Shown: positions 2,425 to 15,661 of the stretch, one piece after another
Layout: the number at the start of each line of letters is the position of its first letter
Position numbering within the stretch: position 1 is the first letter of the stretch
Assembly (NCBI GenBank): GCA_005223125.1
Contig: NJBH01000016.1
Location: 1-64,000, forward strand
Direction: 5' to 3'
Length of the DNA: 64,000 nucleotides
Origin: Promethearchaeota archaeon Loki_b32
GTDB taxonomy: Archaea > Asgardarchaeota > Lokiarchaeia > Sigyniarchaeales > SOKP01
Position numbers and translations under genes: made by a program
The notes under the pieces: generated by a model
What the model was told of the DNA's origin: nothing
The model's input: the letters and a program-made list of their open reading frames with translations, nothing else
Database searches by the model: none

Positions 2425-2907
2425 TTAATCACTTTTTTTATCATTTGTCTGCTTACTTTCATCAGGAAAAAAGAAAATACCAAATATTGTAATAAATAAA
2501 CCCATCCATAAGCCTACGTAAAAAAATAAAAAATGAATATCTACTTGAATAGCTTCCTCACCTACTAACACCAGTATATAGAACATTGATAATGCTGAAC
2601 CACATTCAAAAGAAATAGCAATTATTACTATAATAATTATAAAAATTTTAAGCTTCCGCCAGGGTTTCTTTTTCTTATTAACATCTTCTTCAGGTTGTCT
2701 AGGGGTAATCATTTTTAATATTAAATATTCAATCCCAATTAGACTTATTAAAACTAGAAGAGTTGTCATCATATTGAACGCCCAAAATCTTTTCTCAAAA
2801 GTTCCTACTTCATAAATTATCGTTTGAACCATACTATAAAATAAAAAAATAGACAGAATTATAGCTATGACAGTTAAAATCCAATCCAATTTATACTCTC
2901 GTTCCAT
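2425..2907 (-). CDS. Four-helix integral membrane protein, unknown function
   Basis: This 160-residue protein has hydrophobic helices at about 9-31, 42-64, 87-115 and 126-147. A basic loop with NKKKKPWRKLK follows helix 2 and the tail is charged (DESKQTNDKKSD). No catalytic motif is visible. It resembles the broken gene just downstream (1893-2396) in length and topology, suggesting a local duplication. It lies 37 bases downstream of the beta-helix/membrane protein at 2945-3658 on the same strand and may be cotranscribed with it. No family is recognised. Confidence 0.6.
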   Translation of the reverse strand: MEREYKLDWILTVIAIILSIFLFYSMVQTIIYEVGTFEKRFWAFNMMTTLLVLISLIGIEYLILKMITPRQPEEDVNKKKKPWRKLKIFIIIIVIIAISFECGSALSMFYILVLVGEEAIQVDIHFLFFYVGLWMGLFITIFGIFFFPDESKQTNDKKSD

Positions 2908-2944
2908 TGTTTATCGTTTTGTCCTTTAATTATTCTCAATTAAT

Positions 2945-3658
2945 TTAAAGATCTGATTTTGAACGAAATTCTTTTCTTTCTCTCCAACTTATATATTTAA
3001 GAAAAATCATTAAAAAAATTAATCCCCCCAGCAGTAGGATAGGATAAATCACCCCTTTTGTGCCCATAGGTAAGGAGTAAAAAAATATAAGGAAGAAAAT
3101 TAAAATACCAGTTGTCACAGAAATAACTGTAACAAATGCTAATTTATAATCTGAAAATATATACTTTATCGATTTATATGTATAAAGCTTTAAAATTTTA
3201 GTATTTTCAAAATTAATTCCTCTTGTATGACTTTTTCTAATCCGATTAATAGTACAATTTAAAAAAGAAATATGGAGTGTTGAATTTTGTATTTTAACTC
3301 TTTTGAAAACACTATCTTTAACATCTGTATATGAGCAATATGAAATCTTTAAATAATCTGCAGAGATTTTTCTAATATTTGTATGTGGACTATGATTCAA
3401 AATACAACTTTTTAATATACAATCTTCAACGTTCACATTCTTACAAGAATTTATACTTATTCTATTTTTATTCGAATTAAAATTTTTAATGAGGATATGG
3501 ATGTTGGAACCCTTGAGAAAAAAGATTTGGGGTATTTTAACTGAAGGTTCTATTATTATTGGATTTTCTTCAGTTCCTATTCCTCTACATTCTAATTCAA
3601 TAGCCTCAATTTGAGGTGTTTTCACCGGAGTGTACCATCTGTAAATAGTATACTTCAT
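2945..3658 (-). CDS. Beta-helix-like repeat protein with two C-terminal membrane helices
   Basis: In this 237-residue protein, residues ~20-165 contain short repeated strands rich in N, I, C and S (for example NVNVEDCILKSCILNHS and DVKDSVFKRVKIQNSTLH) spaced like turns of a right-handed beta helix. Two hydrophobic helices follow at about 172-194 and 203-222, then a basic tail. There is no signal peptide at the N terminus, so the repeat part would be placed by the C-terminal helices. It is probably cotranscribed with 2425-2907. Beta-helix repeats are seen only as a pattern; no catalytic residues of a pectate-lyase-type enzyme can be assigned. Confidence 0.55.
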   Translation of the reverse strand: MKYTIYRWYTPVKTPQIEAIELECRGIGTEENPIIIEPSVKIPQIFFLKGSNIHILIKNFNSNKNRISINSCKNVNVEDCILKSCILNHSPHTNIRKISADYLKISYCSYTDVKDSVFKRVKIQNSTLHISFLNCTINRIRKSHTRGINFENTKILKLYTYKSIKYIFSDYKLAFVTVISVTTGILIFFLIFFYSLPMGTKGVIYPILLLGGLIFLMIFLKYISWRERKEFRSKSDL

Positions 3659-5312: not shown

Positions 5313-5981
5313 TTAGAATGGGGCAACTGCCGCAGTTGATCTTGATATTATTATATCCTCTATTGCTTTAATAACGCTTAAGATCATTTCTCGTGTTTCA
5401 GGTGCGTAATATGAGGAATGAAGTAGTTCCTTAATTCTTCTCTTAACATATTTTCTATATTTTCTTATAAAATATACTTTGATTAGTCTGCATGCTTTCA
5501 TTAAACTCAATAAACTTAGTAATTCAATGCCAGGATTCATATCATATATTAAAACATTTTTTATTTGTTCTAACAATGATTGCTTAACTTCTGGTTTTGC
5601 TAAATAAAACCTCTGAGCTTTAAAGATTCTTAGTATGGTCTTAATTTCACTAATTAAAAAACCATTATTTTCCAAACGTCGAAAAAAAGACGTGTAATAT
5701 TGTTTGAAAAATCTTGAAAGTTTTTCTACCCACCTTTTTAATTTTTGTGGCTTTTTTGAGCTATTTAAGAATACTAATATCATATCTAAATAAGGATCTC
5801 CACAAGTATTATAGTCTAAAATCCTTAATCTTTTCCTGTAAATAGCAAGCTTACCTTTAAAATATAAGTCCAATATCATAGCTCCTGCTAATCCTAGATC
5901 CTTAGTAGCCTGAACTGCTGAATATCTTTTACCTTTATACTCATCAAGAAGCATTAATAAAAATTTTTCTGACAGAAGCAT
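5313..5981 (-). CDS. GPP34 (GOLPH3/Vps74)-family protein
   Basis: The 222 residues follow the GPP34 fold from end to end: an opening LLSEKFLLMLLDEYKGK, a DLGLAGAMILDLYFKGKL helix, a short strand pair RLRILD, TCGDPYLDMIL, then WVEKLSRFF, FRRLENNGFLISE and IFKAQRFYLAKPEVKQSL, and a helical C terminus with VKRRIKELL. In eukaryotes GOLPH3/Vps74 binds PI4P on Golgi membranes and retains glycosyltransferases; bacterial members are found mainly in actinobacteria. The eukaryotic PI4P-binding residues cannot be mapped with confidence here. The length (222) fits bacterial and archaeal members rather than the ~300 residues of human GOLPH3. The gene stands alone on the minus strand. Role in the archaeon is unknown; peripheral membrane association is the family expectation. 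Confidence 0.8.
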   Translation of the reverse strand: MLLSEKFLLMLLDEYKGKRYSAVQATKDLGLAGAMILDLYFKGKLAIYRKRLRILDYNTCGDPYLDMILVFLNSSKKPQKLKRWVEKLSRFFKQYYTSFFRRLENNGFLISEIKTILRIFKAQRFYLAKPEVKQSLLEQIKNVLIYDMNPGIELLSLLSLMKACRLIKVYFIRKYRKYVKRRIKELLHSSYYAPETREMILSVIKAIEDIIISRSTAAVAPF

Positions 5982-6274
5982 AATAAATTAACCTCTTTTT
6001 TTCCTTCTTTCATTGTTTTTCTAATTTTGTTGTATCTTTTCCACTCTAAATCCACGAGCATAGATCTTCCCATTTTTCGAGATTTATGTTCTAAAATTTT
6101 TTTGAATCATTTATTGTCATATATATAATATAATGGTCACATATTTAAATATTATGTTCATTAATATAAATTAGAATGGACAGAAAAATAAATTCTATGG
6201 TATATTATATCTAAAAATAATAAGATAAAAGTGAAAATTTATGAACATAGATTTGTATATATTAAGTAATAACT
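5982..6274. promoter_or_regulatory. Divergent intergenic region with AT-rich boxes
   Basis: A ~290-base gap between the GPP34 gene (minus) and the ribbon-helix-helix-like gene (plus). A strongly AT-rich block at about 6118-6165 contains ATATATAATATAATGG and a near-palindromic CATATTTAAATATTATG, good candidates for TATA elements or an operator. Nothing coding is seen. Confidence 0.35.
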
Positions 6275-6907
6275 ATGCTCAAAAAGGAGAAAAAAGATTT
6301 GAACGATAGTAAAAACATAAAAGAGAAAAGATTAACCATTCATACTACTATTACTGAAAAAGCAAATGGATTATTAGAAAAATACGCTGATTTAAAAGAT
6401 GACAACGGTAATAAGATTTTTGGACATAAATCTAAGGTAATTGAGAGGGCATTAGAATTGCTTGATCAACATTATTATCCTGATAAAGAAGATCAACACA
6501 CTATTTGGAATAGAGCGAGGGAAGAACTTAATATGGTATTAGTTGGAAAAACGACATTTCTTTCTTATATTTCTGGAGATTACAAGAAAGCTTTTAGAGA
6601 AAACATTGCGATTGATATTTTAGAGTGGTATAAAAATAAAAATATCGTCGAAATGTCCTTAATTGAGCTTTTAGATTCAATTAAAGATGTTTGGTTAAGC
6701 GCAAATTACTTTTATAAAATAGATAGTGAAGTTGGGAGTAAGGGTAGTTATCAAATGTCGTTTTACCATGATTTACATAGTAAAAGATATAGTGATTTTT
6801 GGGGAAATTATTTTAGTGAGTTATTGTCCCATCAAAAGCAATGTGATGTTGAGATTTTTGCTAGACATGAATCTTTGATTTTAAGGATTTCTTCATCAAA
6901 AAAATGA
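6275..6907 (+). CDS. Ribbon-helix-helix-like DNA-binding protein with an extra C-terminal domain
   Basis: In this 210-residue protein, residues ~18-68 have the pattern of an Arc/MetJ-type ribbon-helix-helix domain: a basic strand (KRLTIHTTIT), a helix (EKANGLLEKYADLK) and a second helix (HKSKVIERALELLDQHY), with an inserted DDNGNKIFG loop. Residues 75-210 are an unrecognised alpha/beta domain. No catalytic signature is seen. A role as a transcriptional regulator is inference from the N terminus. The first of three copies of a short repeat starts 30 bases after its stop codon. Confidence 0.55.
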   Translation: MLKKEKKDLNDSKNIKEKRLTIHTTITEKANGLLEKYADLKDDNGNKIFGHKSKVIERALELLDQHYYPDKEDQHTIWNRAREELNMVLVGKTTFLSYISGDYKKAFRENIAIDILEWYKNKNIVEMSLIELLDSIKDVWLSANYFYKIDSEVGSKGSYQMSFYHDLHSKRYSDFWGNYFSELLSHQKQCDVEIFARHESLILRISSSKK

Positions 6908-6936
6908 GTTTAAGTTTTAGTCTGGATCGATGGTTT

Positions 6937-6967
6937 GAGATGAGACGAGAAGGAGTATGTTCATGAG
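6937..6967 (+). repeat. Series-A repeat, copy 1
   Basis: A 31-base unit with core GAGACGAGAAGGAGTATGTT, ending in CATGAG. It sits 30 bases after the stop of the ribbon-helix-helix-like gene and supplies the ribosome binding site (GGAG at 6952-6955) and start codon of the degenerate GTPase gene. Two further copies lie at 7594 and 8279. Confidence 0.85.
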
Positions 6968-7550
6968 TAGCAATTTTAATTTTTCTTTTTTATTATATGA
7001 TTTATTTATGAGGATTTTTTATAGATATATAGTGGAGCCAACATATTTATTCAAACTTTTAATTATTGGTGATAGAGAGGTTGGGAGACGTACCTTTCTT
7101 AGAGAGTCAATAGATGATAATTTTTTTGTTGAAGATTATATAGAAACCGTGGGAGTAGATATTTATAGAAAGGAGCTAATTGTTGAAGAAGGTGTAATTG
7201 ATTTAATGATTTGGAATGTTTCTACCAAAGAAACCTTTGGAACTCTTTTAACATCATACATAAATACATCAGATGGAGTACTCCTAATGTTTGATATAAC
7301 AAATTTAAGTACGCTATATTTTCTATCCAAGTATCCACAATTGATTAGAGAAAAAGCTGGAGAGATACCTATTTTATTAGTTGGCAATAAACTTGATTTA
7401 AAATGGAAGCGTGAAGTATATGTAGAAGAAGGGGCTGCATTCGCAAGAGGTAATGATTTATTGGATTATATCGAGGTTTCTGCTAAGACAGGGAAAGATT
7501 GTGAAAAAATACTTGAAGTTTTAGTGGAAAATATATTAGTTCAATTTTAA
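6963..7550 (+). CDS. Ras-superfamily small GTPase homologue with degenerate nucleotide-binding motifs
   Basis: The fold follows Rab/Ras GTPases. The P-loop position reads GDREVGRRT, so the invariant Lys and the following Ser/Thr are both Arg. The G3 position reads WNVSTKE instead of WDTAGQE, losing Asp and Gly. G4 (GNKLDL) and G5 (VSAKTGK) are intact. Start ATG 6963 is preferred over ATG 6957 because GGAG lies 7 bases upstream of it and only 1 base from the other. Residues 1-28 are hydrophobic/basic (FSFLLYDLFMRIFYRYI) and could anchor the protein to a membrane. Retained G4/G5 suggests guanine recognition, or inheritance, without normal hydrolysis. Probably a pseudo-GTPase. Confidence 0.75.
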   Translation: MSSNFNFSFLLYDLFMRIFYRYIVEPTYLFKLLIIGDREVGRRTFLRESIDDNFFVEDYIETVGVDIYRKELIVEEGVIDLMIWNVSTKETFGTLLTSYINTSDGVLLMFDITNLSTLYFLSKYPQLIREKAGEIPILLVGNKLDLKWKREVYVEEGAAFARGNDLLDYIEVSAKTGKDCEKILEVLVENILVQF

Positions 7551-8232: not shown

Positions 8233-8278
8233 GCTGGAAGTAAAAAGGGTTATGGAGTGGACCAGTAAGTATATGTTT

Positions 8279-8309
8279 GAGATGAGACGAGAAGGAGAAT
8301 GTTCTAGAG
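8279..8309 (+). repeat. Series-A repeat, copy 3
   Basis: A 31-base copy, GAGATGAGACGAGAAGGAGA followed by ATGTTCTAGAG, 46 bases after the stop of the membrane protein. Relative to copy 1 the internal T is A and the second ATG is lost (TCTAGAG for TCATGAG), so it no longer provides the same start. The distance between copy starts is 657 and 685 bases. Confidence 0.85.
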
Positions 8310-8562
8310 CAGCGAATTTGATAATTCTATTTGTTTCAATTATTTTAAATATGTTCTTTATTATATAATCAAATGAGAATAGCAAGTATATTCAAATAAT
8401 TAAAATATTCAATCCTATGTCAAGAGCTATTGACATCTTCAATGCTTCGCTTTATCTACTATCTGGTTTGTTATGCTATAATAACTACCATTTTATGATA
8501 ACTGGGTGAGAAAAACATTTTAACTTAAAGTAAACAAGTAATTAAAATACAAATTCTTTATC
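8310..8562. other. Gene-free AT-rich gap with one inverted repeat
   Basis: Together with the repeat copy this makes a gene-free gap of ~330 bases. It holds an inverted repeat TGTCAA-GAGCTA-TTGACA at 8418-8435 that could be an operator or a small hairpin. Nothing coding is seen. Confidence 0.3.
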
Positions 8563-9027
8563 ATGAACAATAAAAAAGATAAGATTGAAATTGAAGTTAA
8601 ACAAAGAGGATTCTTAATTGGACAATTAGTTTTAACAACTTTATTTTGGGGTTCTATTAATTATTTTCTTATTGCTGTAGGAATTTTCTTTTTGAAATCT
8701 CAAATAATATCTTTTTTAATAATAATGATGATACTAGTTATATTTAATATTTCTTATAGAAGGGCGTTCAAAAGAGTAATTAAGACCGAAACTCCTATTC
8801 ATAAAGTTCGGTTTTCTGTGTCCGATAAAAAAATCGATATTTACCTTCAAAATAGGTTATATAAGCAGTATTATTGGAAAGATCTTGATAAAATAGAGTT
8901 AGTTAAGGAAAAATATAGTGGAAAGAGAATTCTAACTTTTAGAAAGAAAAATAATATTATATTTCACGGACCCCATTTATCTGATTCAGTACGGTTGTTT
9001 AATTTAGTGCTGTTCAATAAAAATTAA
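8563..9027 (+). CDS. Two-helix membrane protein with a C-terminal PH-like domain
   Basis: This 154-residue protein has a basic/acidic N terminus (NNKKDKIEIEVKQRG), membrane helices at about 19-43 and 45-66, then ~85 residues of alternating strands (HKVRFSVSDKKIDIYLQN, RILTFRKKNNIIFHG) and a final helix. The layout parallels the 180-residue protein at 4648-5190 but is shorter and not clearly the same family. No enzyme motif is seen. Function unknown. Confidence 0.55.
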   Translation: MNNKKDKIEIEVKQRGFLIGQLVLTTLFWGSINYFLIAVGIFFLKSQIISFLIIMMILVIFNISYRRAFKRVIKTETPIHKVRFSVSDKKIDIYLQNRLYKQYYWKDLDKIELVKEKYSGKRILTFRKKNNIIFHGPHLSDSVRLFNLVLFNKN

Positions 9028-9147
9028 AGAGAAACCAATTCCAAACCTTATCTCTTCAATTTTGTCATCCCATAATTCTATTAAATATTCTTTAGGCGAT
9101 TTTTTTTCTTGTTGTATTTTTAAATACGATTTGATTTCATTCTGATT
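9004..9147 (-). pseudogene. Possible C-terminal gene remnant
   Basis: A 47-codon open stretch without a start codon reads as well-formed protein (KSPKEYLIELWDDKIEEIRF) and stops at 9004-9006, overlapping the end of the plus-strand gene by 24 bases. It is opened by a stop upstream at 9148-9150. Amino-acid content is more protein-like than chance AT-rich sequence, but this is a weak case. The remaining gap to 9446 shows nothing. Confidence 0.25.
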
Positions 9148-9446
9148 TCATTAAAATTTGATCTAGTATAATGTAAAATAATCAGATTGATTAGCATTTA
9201 AATATTTATGATTTTTGCTTTTTATTTGGAGACCAACAGTTGTCCTCAAAATTAAAGTAAAAAACATACGAAATAATATTCTTTTTGAAGACACTTTTAC
9301 TTGTATAATTTGACACCCTTTTTATCTAAGAGTCTAGAGCTTTATCTGAATCTGCGATAAGACGGCTAACATATAAATAAATTTTAATTTCTCAAAAGCC
9401 AAAATTTAAAGATCAAAAAATAAACTAAAAATAAAATATAATAAAA

Positions 9447-9716
9447 TTATAAAGGAAACACTTGCTCGGCTTCCTTCTCATCATACTCCACTTCTCGTAA
9501 GCGCATCCGAATTTCTCGCGGAGTAAATGAAGCTTTCAAGATTTCTAACACATTATCATGCAAAGCTTTTAAATTATCTACCGCTGCCGCATGGTAGAAG
9601 TCTTTCTCATTAAAATTAATCGTGATAATATCGCTTAAGCCCGAAAGCGCTTCGCGAATGTTCTTATAACTGGCCATCACATCATCCAATTTTTCTTCAT
9701 TTTCTATAGGTCCCAT
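9447..9716 (-). CDS. Small helical protein, unknown
   Basis: The 89 residues are almost entirely helix-forming and acidic (ENEEKLDDVMASYKNIREAL, then FTPREIRMRLREVEYDEKE). There is no cysteine, signal peptide or membrane segment. The codons used (GCG, CGG, CTC, CGC) are GC-richer than in surrounding genes, as in the 113-residue gene at 10308, with which it is divergently arranged across a 590-base region. The two may form a unit of separate origin. No family is recognised. Confidence 0.55.
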   Translation of the reverse strand: MGPIENEEKLDDVMASYKNIREALSGLSDIITINFNEKDFYHAAAVDNLKALHDNVLEILKASFTPREIRMRLREVEYDEKEAEQVFPL

Positions 9717-10307: not shown

Positions 10308-10649
10308 ATGGAACAAATCCCAAAAATAGAAGAAAAGGTAGAACAGCTAACAGACATCCAAAGAAGCGAAATTTACGAGTATGCTCGGAGGGTCAGTCGA
10401 GAGACGATAGAAGAAGTTTGTCCCGCACTTTTACGTTTAGCCTTAGATTCAGAGAGGGGGAAGCTCAAAAATCAGTTGGGGATGGTAATTTTCCACCTTC
10501 AGAAGAATGAGCGTATTAGTACCGTGATTGGGCTCCAAAAGTTGTTGGATGCGGCTTTAATAGTTAATCCTGAGGAGTTGTTTAAAATTCTCGAAAGTGC
10601 CGACGAGGGAGCTCAGGAGTTAGCCAAAAAAATTAAAGGAATATTATAA
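10308..10649 (+). CDS. 113-residue helical protein whose 3' end recurs downstream
   Basis: An all-helical acidic/basic protein with no membrane segment or cysteine pair: EQIPKIEEKVEQLTDIQRSE, a middle part ETIEEVCPALLRLALDSERG, and a tail KLLDAALIVNPEELFKILES followed by ADEGAQELAKKIKGIL. The ATG at 10308 follows GTGAGTGAGG, a plausible ribosome binding site. Its last 14-43 codons recur four times on the same strand downstream (11157-11288, 12430-12560, 13317-13361, 14417-14455), each ending at the same stop position. Codon choice is GC-richer than that of its neighbours. Function unknown; a helical bundle or adaptor is the most that can be said. Confidence 0.65.
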   Translation: MEQIPKIEEKVEQLTDIQRSEIYEYARRVSRETIEEVCPALLRLALDSERGKLKNQLGMVIFHLQKNERISTVIGLQKLLDAALIVNPEELFKILESADEGAQELAKKIKGIL

Positions 10650-10710
10650 TTCGGAAAAAAAAAAATGAAATTAAAATAATTTTTTCACTTATTTAGTGTA
10701 TAATTTTATT

Positions 10711-11007
10711 TTACTTTTTTAAATCGTCTATAACTTCTTGAACTTGATCTACTGTTGCGATTGCTTTTATATCAAATTTGGTAAACGGAACATATTTTTG
10801 TAATGCTTTACCAAGTTCTACCTCAGATGCTTCCATGATGCTATAACCATTTGTTTCCCCTGCGAATGCTCCCCAATCCTTTGTTATACCTTCTTGTATA
10901 TCTTTCTTAACTAAAGCTACTAAACCATTCCAACCGATGCCTCTTTCTTTTCGATCGATTGGAATTTTAGTCCAATCTACTTCCCATAAGACTAAATATT
11001 TACCCAT
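10711..11007 (-). CDS. Small dimeric alpha/beta-barrel protein (DUF3303-like)
   Basis: The 98 residues begin MGKYLVLWEVDWTKIP and contain DWGAFAGETNGYSIMEAS and FDIKAIATVDQVQEVI, the pattern of a small ferredoxin-like (dimeric alpha-beta barrel) fold seen in DUF3303-type proteins. No catalytic residues are evident. The gene is on the minus strand between two copies of the plus-strand gene tail (10649 and 11157), so it forms the first unit of that array. Function unknown; the fold assignment is by pattern only. Confidence 0.6.
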   Translation of the reverse strand: MGKYLVLWEVDWTKIPIDRKERGIGWNGLVALVKKDIQEGITKDWGAFAGETNGYSIMEASEVELGKALQKYVPFTKFDIKAIATVDQVQEVIDDLKK

Positions 11008-11156
11008 AAATTATCACTCTCTTAAATTTTTTTGATTTGAAATTTTTAAATTATTGGACGTTCATGTACAAATTTCTGTACCAAGATTCTTATTATTTCA
11101 CACTATTTAAAAATTCTTCTTGAAATTAAAAGAAAATTTGGAATTGAAGGGGAATT

Positions 11157-11288
11157 AACGCGGTAATTGCCCTACAGGAATTGCTTGATGCGGCGTTGAT
11201 TGTGGCTCTTGAGGAGCTGTTTAAAATTATTGAGAGTTCGGATGAGGAAGTTCAGGAATTAGCCAAAAAAATAAAAGAGATATTATAA
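11157..11288 (+). pseudogene. Gene-tail copy 2 (last 43 codons of the 113-residue gene family)
   Basis: The translated stretch NAVIALQELLDAALIVALEE continues through LFKIIESSDEEVQELAKKIK and closes with TAA at 11286-11288. It matches the last 43 residues of the 10308-10649 product with many synonymous and conservative changes, and stays in frame. No start or N-terminal part precedes it. Confidence 0.85.
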
Positions 11289-11417
11289 ATTTTTTTTCAA
11301 TCTAAAGTTTTGGAATGGATTTTTGAAATTCGTAGTTAAATATTTTAGCTTTCTTCCGTGTTCTTGAATTCGAAGGTGTAGCTTTCTCTTCATGACTGAA
11401 AAAAATAACATGCGTAC

Positions 11418-12278
11418 CTATCTATATATTTGAAACAACATTTTCCACATTCCTAAATCTAAATATTCTTTTCTTGGTCTTAAATAATACATCATGTAAC
11501 ACTTTAGTACCCATCTCTCTAAGTTTTCTTTATGTTTTATGATTTGTTTTCCCGAAGTATAATTAAAGTAATTGAAATCCGTGATTAAATCATCTTTTAT
11601 GTATTTTTCATAAATTTTTGTACCTGGTAGAGGGATTAAAATTCTGAAAGATACTATTGTAGGATCCATCTTTTTAGCAAACTGTATCGTTGCATTCAAA
11701 TCAGAATTTGTTTCATCTATATACCCTAATATAAAGAGACCAGTAAAAAAAATTCCTTTTTTCTTTAATCTCTCAGCAGATTTTAAAACATCCTTTTTTT
11801 TTATTCTCTTATTGTAGGATTTCAGTATTTTTTCAGAACCTGACTCAACACCTAAAAACAAATGCATACAGCCAGATTTTTTGAATAAATCCAATATATC
11901 TTCACTAATATTCGCTATAGTATCGACTCTAGCATTTGCATCCCAATAAATTTTAATTCCTTCTTCCATTATTTTATTGCATATTTCTTCTACTCTTTCG
12001 ATTGATACCATAAAATTATCATCAACAAAAAAAACCATTGGTCTCTTGCCTTCTGGTCCACTTACCTTTTTTATATTAGGATGGTTTTTGATTAGTTCTT
12101 TAATCTCTTCAATAATATTCGCTGCAGATCTATGTCTCCATTTTAACCCATCTTTTCCGGAAACTTGGCAAAATGTACATCCAAAAGGACATCCCCTCGA
12201 AGTCGAAACGGTAAAAGCATGAGTTCCATATTTTTCAAGAGGTACCAAATGTCTTGCTGGAAAAGGTAATTTATCCAA
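11418..12278 (-). pseudogene. Radical SAM protein lacking its N-terminal cobalamin-binding domain
   Basis: The 286 residues begin at a TTG with LDKLPFPARHLVPL, the linker that in B12-binding radical SAM proteins follows a ~150-200-residue cobalamin domain. The [4Fe-4S] cysteines are present in STSRGCPFGCTFCQVSG, with the later strands VVFFVDDNF-like, LGVESGSE and FILGYIDET and an IPLPGTKIYE segment. Upstream the same frame shows only a few codons (SDNFIAD) before a stop at about 12319-12321, and the next element is gene-tail copy 3. The B12 domain is therefore missing, probably by deletion at the unit boundary. The core could still fold, but function is doubtful. Confidence 0.7.
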
Positions 12279-12429
12279 ATCTGCGATAAAATTATCGCTA
12301 TAGATCTTGTTCTATCCAAATTAGACCAATATTCAATAATAATCATTTATAAAAAATTGATTTGCACAAAATTCTTTAACTGTATTGACAGGGAACAAAT
12401 TGGAATTGCAGGATGCTGTATAGAAATTT

Positions 12430-12560
12430 AACACGGTGATTGGGCCCAAAAGTTGCTTGATGCGGCTTTAATCGTCAATCCTGAGGAGAAGTTTAAGATT
12501 CTCGAGAGTGCCGACGAGGGCGCCCAAGAGTTAGCGAAAAAAATTAAGAGTATCTTATAG
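12430..12560 (+). pseudogene. Gene-tail copy 3, frameshifted
   Basis: Starts like the 113-residue gene (ACGGTGATTGGG) but has lost one base at GGGCCCAAAAG, so the first part is out of frame. The rest reads LLDAALIVNPEEKFKILESA and EGAQELAKKIKSIL and closes with TAG at 12558-12560. It is the copy closest to the intact gene. A one-base deletion plus no start codon means it cannot encode the family protein. Confidence 0.85.
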
Positions 12561-13001
12561 GTTATTTTTACATACTATTTCTTTTCTACTATTCATAGAA
12601 TTTTATTTGGTGGATATTTTTGCATTTTTTTATAATCCTAGACGGTAGCATGAAAGCTTTGACAATTTGCCAAAAATACTTTAATATTAAATAGATCTTA
12701 GAATAGTTTGGGTTCACACGATCTTTTGTGGATACAAAGTTAATTGATAATATGGAGAAAAATGGTATAAATCATTTCTCATTTTGATTAAGAGTCTTTT
12801 TTAAAAAATTAATACAGTATTGGGGATAATTATACCTATCAGTATAAAAAGAAAATCAATCTACATATAATATCACCTAAGAAGGGAATTCATAGACAAT
12901 CTGAATAAACATTGGATTTCGCCCTCTATTAAACTCTATTAAGTTTAATTCACTCCCTTATTTTAAAAAATTGATTCAGATTTCTCTTCTCTTCTTTTTC
13001 T

Positions 13002-13235
13002 TTAACATTTGAAGATTTTTGGTTCAACAGATTGTAAATTAAATAAGTCTTTAACGCCCTCTCCATCTCTATCTGGTGGTGGGGGATTATCTTGTCCTGA
13101 GTTTGAACTGCCACATTCACAATCAGTATACCCTGTATAATTAAGGATCCAATTAAATACAGTATCACAATAGTAAACCGCTTGATTTAGGTTGTGGGTT
13201 CTACAATTGATTTTTAGAGAGAGTAAGGGCTTAAA
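13002..13235 (-). pseudogene. Cys-rich C-terminal gene fragment
   Basis: A 77-codon open stretch with no start codon: INCRTHNLNQAVYYCDTVFN, then WILNYTGYTDCECGSSNSGQ, a proline-rich DNPPPPDRDGEG linker and a closing VEPKIFKC. The Cys, Pro and Gly content is that of a real extracytoplasmic-type protein rather than chance, and it outcompetes a Leu/Ile-rich frame on the same strand (12950-13168). No family is recognised. It lies in the third unit of the gene-tail array, next to tail copy 4. The region 12561-13000 holds nothing else that I can read. Confidence 0.4.
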
Positions 13236-13316
13236 TTAAATATTACCTAAGATAACAATTAAAAGGTAAAATCAAAAATTGTCAAAATTTTAAAGAAAAA
13301 TTTAAATTAATAAAAA

Positions 13317-13361
13317 GCGGATGCTCAGGAGTTAGCAAAAGAAATTAAGAATATATTATAA
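13317..13361 (+). pseudogene. Gene-tail copy 4 (last 14 codons)
   Basis: Encodes ADAQELAKEIKNIL followed by TAA, matching the last 14 residues of the 113-residue protein, with changes mostly at third codon positions. It ends 6 bases before the stop of the minus-strand MarR-GNAT gene (13368). Confidence 0.8.
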
Positions 13362-13367
13362 ATCTAT

Positions 13368-14291
13368 TTATAAATCCAACTCCCAATCTTCTTCGGTTAA
13401 GGTTTGTCCCCAAATAGGGTGTGTTTTGGAATTAACTAATTGAAATCCATTTTTTTCATATAACCTACGAGCCATTTTAAGGTCGCTGAACGTCCCTAGA
13501 ATAATTTTTTTATAACCTTGATATTTACAGAAACTAATTGCTTCATACATTAGTTTTGTCCCGATTCCCTTATTTCGTGCATAGGGTTCAACGAGAAGCC
13601 AACGTAGTTGCGCAATGTTGTCGTTTACATTAACAATGGCAATTGAACCAACAACCTCAGTTCCAATCTCAACAATCCATAAACAATCTTTAGCGGGATC
13701 ATAATTTTCAACGAATTGCGCCATATATTTAGCTACATAAGCTTCAAACGTTTCATCGAGCTGATATTCCATTGTATAAATCACTCCATGTCGATATGTG
13801 ATATACCCTATATCACCCGGTTTATGAGATCGTATGCTATAAAATTCTGACTTCTCTGGTTCTCTTTTTAAAATTCTCTCAATAACTTCCATTGAATTGA
13901 CAAGTTTATTTTGATCCTCATCTGTTAAATTGGATAATAACATTATAATTTGTTCACTTGCTCTCTCTTGAAGTTCTGAAATCAAATCCTTTCCCGTGGA
14001 TGTTAATGAAAGCAATCGTTTTCGCATATCCTTACTTGAACGTTCTTTTAGAATCAAATTTTTTTCTTCAAAACTACTCAATATACGGCTGAGATATGCA
14101 GGATCCAAGTTTAGTAGTTTTACAATTTCACTCGCAGTTGAAGTTGATAAGTTGTTAAGTTCAAATAAGATTCTCACGTCAGTTAAAGAATATGCACTTT
14201 TCAATAAAGTTTTATCTAAAAGCCCTAGTAAATTGGTATAGAAACGGTTAAAACTTCGAATTTTCCCAATTCTTTCTGTTTTTTCTATCAT
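13368..14291 (-). CDS. MarR-type regulator fused to a GNAT N-acetyltransferase
   Basis: The 307-residue protein has two domains. Residues ~10-145 are a MarR winged helix (SYSLTDVRILFELNNLSTST, LNLDPAYLSRILSSFEEKNL, RSSKDMRKRLLSLTSTGKDL). Residues ~150-307 are a GNAT acetyltransferase with the acetyl-CoA loop LLVEPYARNKGIGTKLMYEA and the final YEKNGFQLV. This fusion is a known architecture in bacteria and archaea; it acetylates an unknown small substrate, and the MarR part presumably regulates its own or neighbouring genes. It lies between gene-tail copies 4 and 5. Full length for the family. Confidence 0.88.
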   Translation of the reverse strand: MIEKTERIGKIRSFNRFYTNLLGLLDKTLLKSAYSLTDVRILFELNNLSTSTASEIVKLLNLDPAYLSRILSSFEEKNLILKERSSKDMRKRLLSLTSTGKDLISELQERASEQIIMLLSNLTDEDQNKLVNSMEVIERILKREPEKSEFYSIRSHKPGDIGYITYRHGVIYTMEYQLDETFEAYVAKYMAQFVENYDPAKDCLWIVEIGTEVVGSIAIVNVNDNIAQLRWLLVEPYARNKGIGTKLMYEAISFCKYQGYKKIILGTFSDLKMARRLYEKNGFQLVNSKTHPIWGQTLTEEDWELDL

Positions 14292-14416
14292 TACACCTCA
14301 TTCTATATAATGATTTGTGCAATTTAAACTTTGACAAAGTCAACTAAATACTTGATAAGATCAAGTAAATATTCAAACTCCCTTTTTATTTCATGAAATA
14401 ATTAATTAGACCTTAA

Positions 14417-14455
14417 ACTCAGGAGTTAGCCAGAAAAATTAAGGGAATATTATAG
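14417..14455 (+). pseudogene. Gene-tail copy 5 (last 12 codons)
   Basis: Encodes TQELARKIKGIL followed by TAG, matching the end of the 113-residue protein. It is the last recognised copy, 125 bases upstream (plus-strand right) of the MarR-GNAT start at 14291 and 46 bases before the stop of the M28 peptidase gene. Confidence 0.8.
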
Positions 14456-14500: not shown

Positions 14501-15661
14501 TTATTTAATATAATTGGAATCATAATCTTTTAAAGCATCTGTTAGAACCAAACACACTTTCTTCAAAAGGTTCGTATCGATTTTGTCGATTGTATCATTA
14601 GGGGTATGCATATAAGCATATGCTTCCACTTCACCAATACCATATCCTTGAAGACCTCTATCTCCTAAAAAACCTCCATCGGAATGAGTGCCGAAAACTC
14701 TATTCGTAATGAAATGGTTAATCCTAAGATCTCTTTTGTTATTTATTAACAAATTATCAATATCCTTAGCGTGATCCCCTTCTTTACCTCCTGGGAATAG
14801 AAATGCATGTTTGGCTATAGATTCAAAATTAAAAATTATCGATTTCTCAGTATCAAAATTTTCCAGATTATTATAAAAATGCCTGATCCCCATAGTTCCG
14901 CATTCTTCAGCGCCAGTAAAGAGGAACCAGAGGTTAAAGTTTGTTAATCTGTTTTCTGGAATGGTATAGTAATTTACAAGTTCTAAATTACATGCTATAC
15001 CGGAAGCGTTATCTACAGCACCAATAGAACTATTATCTGTAGTGTTAAGAATCATTATTATTGAGGCAAATATGTTTAATATTAAGGGAAACACCCCGAT
15101 AATATAAAAAATTAGTTCTAATCCTATAAATACTGAGTTTTTAAGGATGATAATAGCAGCTAGAACAATTGATGAAGAGATCCAAAGCTTAATTATTCTT
15201 ATCCGTATTCTAACTTTGAATCTTTGGGCCTTGGAATCCAAATGACTCATAAACAATGCAATTCTGTCATTATTCTTTATATCATTTGATATAGACTTAA
15301 TCTTTACAAGAAGGTTCTGTGAACGTAATCTTGAAATGAATTGAATCTTTTCCGGATTTCTCGTTAATATAATAGAGGCAATCAATATACTTAGTAATAT
15401 GTGTATTAAAATCAAAGACATAATCATTAAAATATTCAAATATAGTAGGAATATTATTAAAGAAAAGGATAAAAATGCTATTTTAGGATATAATCTCGAA
15501 TAAAACGAACTGAACGTAAATCGTTGGATTTCAAATTCTAGATTCAAATTCTCTACAGCTCTTTTTACTTTATTAAAAGCTTTAAGTTCAAATTCTGTTC
15601 CAGATAATCGAGGAAAAGCAAACTCTTTAAGATTTTTTTTAATTCGGGCTTCTTCAATCAT
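14501..15661 (-). CDS. M28-family metallopeptidase with internal membrane helices
   Basis: In this 386-residue protein, the M28 zinc-ligand pattern is split by hydrophobic stretches: MSHLDSKAQ (H140, D142), then GAVDNASG (D217), TGAEECG (E252-E253) and, near the C terminus, HTPNDTID (His). Four membrane helices lie at ~60-80, 81-100, 160-178 and 180-205, so the first ligand segment sits in a loop between two helix pairs. Family activity is zinc aminopeptidase or related amidohydrolase. The inserted second helix pair between the first and second metal ligands is unusual and would hold the active site at the membrane surface. Start ATG at 15661. Confidence 0.75.
   Translation of the reverse strand: MIEEARIKKNLKEFAFPRLSGTEFELKAFNKVKRAVENLNLEFEIQRFTFSSFYSRLYPKIAFLSFSLIIFLLYLNILMIMSLILIHILLSILIASIILTRNPEKIQFISRLRSQNLLVKIKSISNDIKNNDRIALFMSHLDSKAQRFKVRIRIRIIKLWISSSIVLAAIIILKNSVFIGLELIFYIIGVFPLILNIFASIIMILNTTDNSSIGAVDNASGIACNLELVNYYTIPENRLTNFNLWFLFTGAEECGTMGIRHFYNNLENFDTEKSIIFNFESIAKHAFLFPGGKEGDHAKDIDNLLINNKRDLRINHFITNRVFGTHSDGGFLGDRGLQGYGIGEVEAYAYMHTPNDTIDKIDTNLLKKVCLVLTDALKDYDSNYIK

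Follow-up and report, generated by a model that had tools for sequence, protein, structure and literature searches.

Downstream of a small intact gene, c3, in a 64,000-nt stretch of DNA from Promethearchaeota archaeon Loki_b32 (contig NJBH01000016.1, positions 1–64,000; referred to as the window), four same-strand copies of the 3' end of that gene (tails) were found, separated by unrelated minus-strand genes (Table 1). The 3' ends of c3, of its divergent neighbour c2, and of a paralogue of c2 that lies on a different contig are probably entry points for foreign genes, the tails being older gene ends displaced by arrivals that were anchored by homology. The window genome (G000) was compared with relatives bearing the names of Lokiarchaeota or Lokiarchaeia metagenome-assembled genomes (MAGs), and every genome in the comparison is a MAG.

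The four tails after the 113-residue gene had been described in an initial annotation made from the letters of the window, and their presence was confirmed. Scored with a 45-nt weight matrix built from 14 c3 orthologues, they reached 43–59 bits, whereas the best match in the reversed sequence of all loci (445 kb) reached 6.8 bits, and a chance origin was rejected on this ground. A 28-bp tail match on contig C38 of the window genome fell under the matrix threshold and was dropped. All four window tails end in TAA or TAG. In 15 tails, the differences from the gene numbered 73, 57, and 192 at codon positions 1, 2, and 3, respectively; because 60% are at third positions (references: 70% in gene-to-gene comparisons, 33% if neutral), the tails are taken as remains of once-coding copies, as the initial annotation had supposed. 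An assembly artefact is unlikely, since the tails and their flanks match across independent MAGs.

The origin of the tails was read from pairs of genomes that represent states before and after an event. The c3 end, the DUF3303-like gene, and tail 1 of the window are collinear with positions 2482–3164 of G018 (87% over 690 bp). The shared block starts with the intact gene end in the window and with a tail in G018, where a new c3 end and a 110-aa gene stand in front of it; in G014, an eroded old c3 end lies at the equivalent place, ~70 bp behind the new one. For c2, positions 8367–9179 of G008, which end 41 nt inside the intact gene, match positions 5575–6387 of G015 (95.5% over 814 bp). In G015, those 41 nt are a c2 tail, whose edge is the exact point where the match ends; a cargo gene and then intact c2 follow. 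Between these two genomes, the intact c2–c3 pair is 87% identical and the flanks 91–95%. From the G000/G018 and G008/G015 pairs, the tails are shown to be former gene ends, displaced by incoming DNA that brought a fresh gene end and cargo. These pairs, together with the different cargo in relatives, bear out the earlier suggestion that the 3' ends are a preferred junction for insertion or recombination. G013 and G017 are 97% identical downstream, but a 280-bp tail-bearing stretch is present in G017 only, and the G013 copy of c3 begins at codon 28 (83–84% identical) where G017 has the whole gene. A retro-copy model, in which 5'-truncated copies were made from mRNA, was rejected because the tails are continuous with the native downstream gene over hundreds of bases.

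Orthologues of c3 occur in almost every member of the genus and also within the Lokiarchaeia family, and the gene is encoded in 17 of the 19 genus genomes. The conserved frame of the locus consists of genes on the c2 side that look MetF/MetV-like in sequence, followed by c2 (minus strand), c3 (plus strand), and an M28 peptidase gene. Two intervals, MetV to c2 and c3 to M28, differ in gene content in almost every genome. Tails of c3 were found in 8 of the 15 genomes with this gene arrangement: four in G000, three in G005, two each in G009 and G018, one each in G001, G013, and G017, and one plus an eroded one in G014. The G013 tail (codons 28–113) is the only, 5'-truncated c3 copy of that MAG, which is 79% complete. 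The G014 tail occupies the same place as window tail 4, beside M28, and G018 shares the flank up to M28. The cargo between tails differs from genome to genome, and no c3 tails were found in outgroups having c3 and c2 in tandem. The initial annotation had named two outcomes that would have pointed to simple decay, tails absent elsewhere or cargo-free full-length paralogues in close relatives, and neither was found. Rare c3 fragments keep the middle of the gene and have lost the 3' end at about codon 78 (G001 7005–7177 and G015 12137–12170; loci L060 and L052, oriented with c3 on the plus strand); the G001 fragment is fused to the M28 end and the G015 fragment to codon 27 of c2.

The similar behaviour of c2 had been missed by the initial annotation. 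In relatives, c2 tails sit on the opposite side from the c3 tails, so both outward-facing ends of the c2–c3 pair behave alike. They were found in G009 (six, evenly split between the locus contig and other contigs), G012 (one nearby and two at a remote place adjoining M28-end remnants), G004, G015 (one and one inverted), and, weakly, G008. The c2 tail of the window genome lies on contig C45 (L141 3277–3411), which also carries the MetF/MetV-like genes found next to c2 at the locus of relatives. At the remote place in G012 (G012:C1:558508-561400; L143 8508–11400), two c2 tails and two M28 3' remnants lie side by side, far from the c2–c3 locus of this single-contig genome, which suggests that the variable region was formerly there or was split by rearrangement.

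Tails of the c2 paralogue were detected in G000 and G004. In G000, a recent direct repeat of 226 bp (97%), comprising the gene end and its flank, brackets an insert of ~2.4 kb, and another fresh case is a 96-bp repeat at L174 that takes in the downstream flank. At the c2-paralogue loci of eight genomes, an 80-nt imperfect inverted repeat (CCAGTTCCCTGA...TCAGGGAGCTGACC; predicted −28 kcal/mol) follows cargo genes, up to five times per array behind the paralogue (L057 6112–6196 and 8743–8827 on G000:C38; also L144, L145, L148, L149, L150, L151, and L156). This hairpin repeat was not found elsewhere in 1.5 Mb, nor at the c2 and c3 tails. A 493-aa gene beside the c2 paralogue has long 3' tails of its own (176–245 nt) downstream in two genomes (L148 15292–18998 and L150 3575–9780).

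The gene side of the junctions is seamless and the tail side is variable. The 5' edges of c3 tails range from codon 12 to codon 102, and many tails are mosaic, one part being decayed and the other intact, with either the 5' or the 3' part as the decayed one. A fixed attachment core, suggested by the minimum tail of ~40 nt, was rejected, as the breakpoints vary. No integrase or transposase family was found among the part of the cargo proteins that was scanned, and the two strong tyrosine recombinases of the window genome are both on other contigs. Variable edges, mosaic tails, and cargo in which no integrase was found favour homology-anchored recombination over a fixed attachment site. When pairwise identities were correlated with those of the host marker c2, rho was 0.79 for the c2–c3 spacer, 0.49 for the 5' part of c3, 0.37 for its 3' part, and 0.00 for the 60 nt past the c3 stop; this fall and the variable tail edges are what would be expected if entry is anchored by homology within the gene and the far junction is free to vary.

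Cargo was shown to differ between species and to be exchanged, and shared genes stand out of order. At a level where core genes are mostly 75–85% identical, a ferredoxin-like gene in unit 1 of G001 matches one in unit 3 of G005 (94%, DNA), and other shared genes are an MFS-like gene (assigned by eye; G003/G014, 88%), a radical SAM gene (G007/G018, 93%), and a 149-aa gene (G008/G015, 91%). Both the c3 and the c2-paralogue loci contain Cys-rich and LRR-type (by eye) families, among others.

In the proposed mechanism, incoming DNA from a related Lokiarchaeon would carry the end of the same gene, or the whole gene, together with unrelated cargo. On its upstream side, it would recombine by homology with the resident gene, which would always be restored with a new 3' end, and its far end would join somewhere inside the old 3' end. 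The old end and its native downstream neighbour would be pushed outward, the former becoming a tail. Repeated rounds would build an ordered array that records the order of arrival, with the oldest unit beside M28 and new units entering next to the gene. Tails are direct repeats of the gene end, and units can therefore also be lost or exchanged. We infer that host homologous recombination, by a circular intermediate or by one-sided end joining, is responsible rather than a dedicated recombinase; the circular-intermediate model and homology-facilitated illegitimate recombination both fit, and the data do not separate them.

Several observations weigh against homology-anchored displacement. In half of the genomes, cargo is present with no detectable c3 tails, and gene gain therefore also occurs by routes other than displacement. 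Donor molecules were not observed. The mirror image of the tails would be 5' heads upstream of genes; the genus samples (described below) contained none, an absence that recombination alone does not explain. Events in the G000/G018 pair may have run in the opposite order, by excision between repeats, some short c2 tails have nearly the same edge (39–47 nt from the stop), and the 80-nt hairpin after c2-paralogue units looks site-specific. An integron-like or integrase-driven system was considered and is unlikely. In it, cassettes would be inserted at a site within the gene 3' end by a recombinase working in trans, much as phage-type integrases use gene and tRNA ends. Such a system would account for the ordered arrays, the gene that is always restored, the ~40-nt core in all c3 tails, and the inverted repeats at the c2-paralogue locus, and integrons have been reported as enriched in Asgard genomes (PMC9668308). 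However, tail edges and mosaic breakpoints vary, the c2, c2-paralogue, and c3 ends have no obvious common sequence, the hairpin was not found at c2 or c3 tails, and the cargo tested contained no recombinase gene. Integron-like, focused gene acquisition at chosen 3' ends (c2, c3, and the c2 paralogue with its hairpin), served by a dedicated DNA-directing factor in which the helical c2 and c3 proteins might take part, is likewise doubtful.

Decay of a tandem family is very improbable; under that reading, c3 would have been duplicated together with the genes in between, and every copy except one would have been worn away from its 5' end. The nearly full second c3 copy of G005 (codons 12–113), the tendency of distal tails to be shorter in G000, G005, and G009, and the former coding of the tails all agree with it, but the displacement pairs contradict it: pre-insertion states that lack additional copies are seen in G008 for c2 and in G000 for the G018 unit. 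The cargo genes are also unrelated and not the same from one genome to the next. The 3' parts also nearly always survive, c3 parts lacking the 3' end being confined to the two rearranged cases in G001 and G015, which would not be expected under neutral decay. It is harder still to credit a retained function of the tails, such as transcription termination or a role as silent donors in c3 gene conversion. The initial annotation had offered a retained function as its other option, and a T-tract does follow several tails, while stretches of gene–tail identity in G014 and G018 suggest occasional conversion. Against this, stop, frame, or T-tract has been lost in tails of several genomes (G000 tail 3, G001, G005 tail 2, G017, and G018 tail 2), one tail is absent from G013, which is 97% identical to G017 around it, and the encoded C-terminus is invariant, leaving no purpose for diversification.

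The protein encoded by c3 had no Pfam, NCBIfam, or PDB fold match, and no relative that would indicate a viral origin was found among 2.9 million viral contigs. The earlier reading of the minus-strand cargo held for the radical SAM gene lacking its N-terminal part, the Cys-rich fragment (residues ~330–382 of a 423-aa family), and the complete MarR-GNAT gene; the DUF3303 match was weak (E 0.1, below the cut-off). A relative of the MarR-GNAT gene lies on the far side of M28 in G001, G004, and G008, and the gene seems to have moved into the window array. Other cargo includes a PIN-domain gene with an AbrB-like neighbour (by eye) that together have a toxin-antitoxin look (L042 3320–3996) and a gene for a 1361-aa beta-helix (NosD) protein with a C-terminal TIR domain (L049 9383–13465). 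Within the c2-side cargo of the window, a 71-bp repeat (6933–7003 and 8275–8345; 79%) covers the start of a Ras-like GTPase gene; as a 5' head, it is the converse of the 3' tails.

Table 1. Coordinates of c3, its tails, and neighbouring features in the window
Feature	Position	Strand	Description
c2	9447..9716	-	89-aa helical protein gene, divergent neighbour of c3
c3	10308..10649	+	intact gene, 113 aa, all-helical protein
Collinear block	10584..11272	+	c3 end, DUF3303-like gene, and tail 1, compared with G018 2482-3164
DUF3303-like cargo gene	10711..11007	-	weak match; common to G014 and G018
Tail 1	11154-11288	+	codons 70-113; 76% to c3; orthologous to tail 2 of G018
Radical SAM cargo gene	11418..12287	-	PF04055, E 1e-24; ~165 N-terminal residues absent compared with relatives
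Tail 2	12428-12560	+	codons 70-113; 85% to c3; one 1-nt deletion
Cys-rich cargo gene, 3' fragment	13001..13196	-	family at this locus in G005, G013, G015, G017
Tail 3	13317-13361	+	last 15 codons of c3
MarR-GNAT gene	13368..14291	-	complete; between tails 3 and 4
Tail 4	14417-14455	+	last 13 codons of c3; adjoins M28
M28 peptidase	14501..15661	-	conserved right border of variable region

Tail rates were estimated from samples of seven genus genomes (~1,040 open reading frames [ORFs]) and three other Asgard lineages (650 ORFs). The genus samples contained about six clean downstream 3' tails of unrelated genes (judged by eye) and no upstream 5' heads, and the other lineages no tail and one head; the higher rate in the genus points the right way and is too small to be significant. 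The ways in which Asgard archaea gain genes are of direct relevance to how mixing arose in the lineage that led to eukaryotes. Displaced ends would provide a readable record of the site, the neighbouring gene, and the order of arrival where no mobile-element gene betrays the event, and the pattern, 3'-anchored partial copies downstream on the same strand, can be searched in every genome by one script. C-terminal displacement would thereby be extended from bacterial toxins to ordinary genes.

Among known systems are integrative elements that restore the 3' terminus of tRNA or protein genes. The arrays resemble them in that the incoming copy restores the gene and the old end is displaced, and differ in the variable crossover, the single-gene cargo, and the lack of an integrase in the cargo tested. 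Nor do they look like transposons: no transposase was found in the cargo proteins tested, and the repeats, ~40–300 bp, vary in length. Like integrons, including archaeal ones (PMC9668308), the arrays hold ordered single-gene units between repeats, the newest apparently nearest the fixed point; unlike them, they have cargo on either strand and separators that are the resident gene's own end, different at each locus, and no IntI was found beside the array. An attC-like folded site with a fixed crossover was not seen at c2 or c3 tails, the hairpin being limited to the c2-paralogue loci. In homology-facilitated illegitimate recombination, the homologous end would correspond to the restored gene and the illegitimate end to the variable tail edge, whereas the repeated focus on the same gene ends is unusual for that process; we know of no demonstration of it in Asgard archaea.

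The statement in the initial annotation that no described element has this form was half right, as C-terminal displacement in Rhs and type VI secretion system (T6SS) loci comes closest. A circular-intermediate model has been proposed for displacement at Rhs loci (Jackson et al. 2009, PMC2935791). In Vibrio cholerae, T6SS effectors have been described as undergoing sequential displacement (Kirchberger et al. 2017, PMC5361080), and homology-facilitated illegitimate recombination was proposed for those arrays; this type of recombination during DNA uptake is discussed there and in PMC3240628. As in those systems, a series of 3' fragments, all on the strand of the full gene and differing in how far they reach in the 5' direction, lies behind that gene; incoming DNA, anchored in the gene by homology, would have displaced each fragment, and the same end is joined to the gene in one strain and separated from it in another (here, between genomes). 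There, the C-terminus is the variable toxin cargo with an immunity gene, whereas the C-terminus of c3 is conserved, c3 is a small non-toxin gene, and its cargo consists of unrelated metabolic, regulatory, or transport genes, in an archaeon with at least three hot genes and scattered others. The c3 array is not a member of the class formed by Rhs and contact-dependent inhibition (CDI) loci and only works like it.

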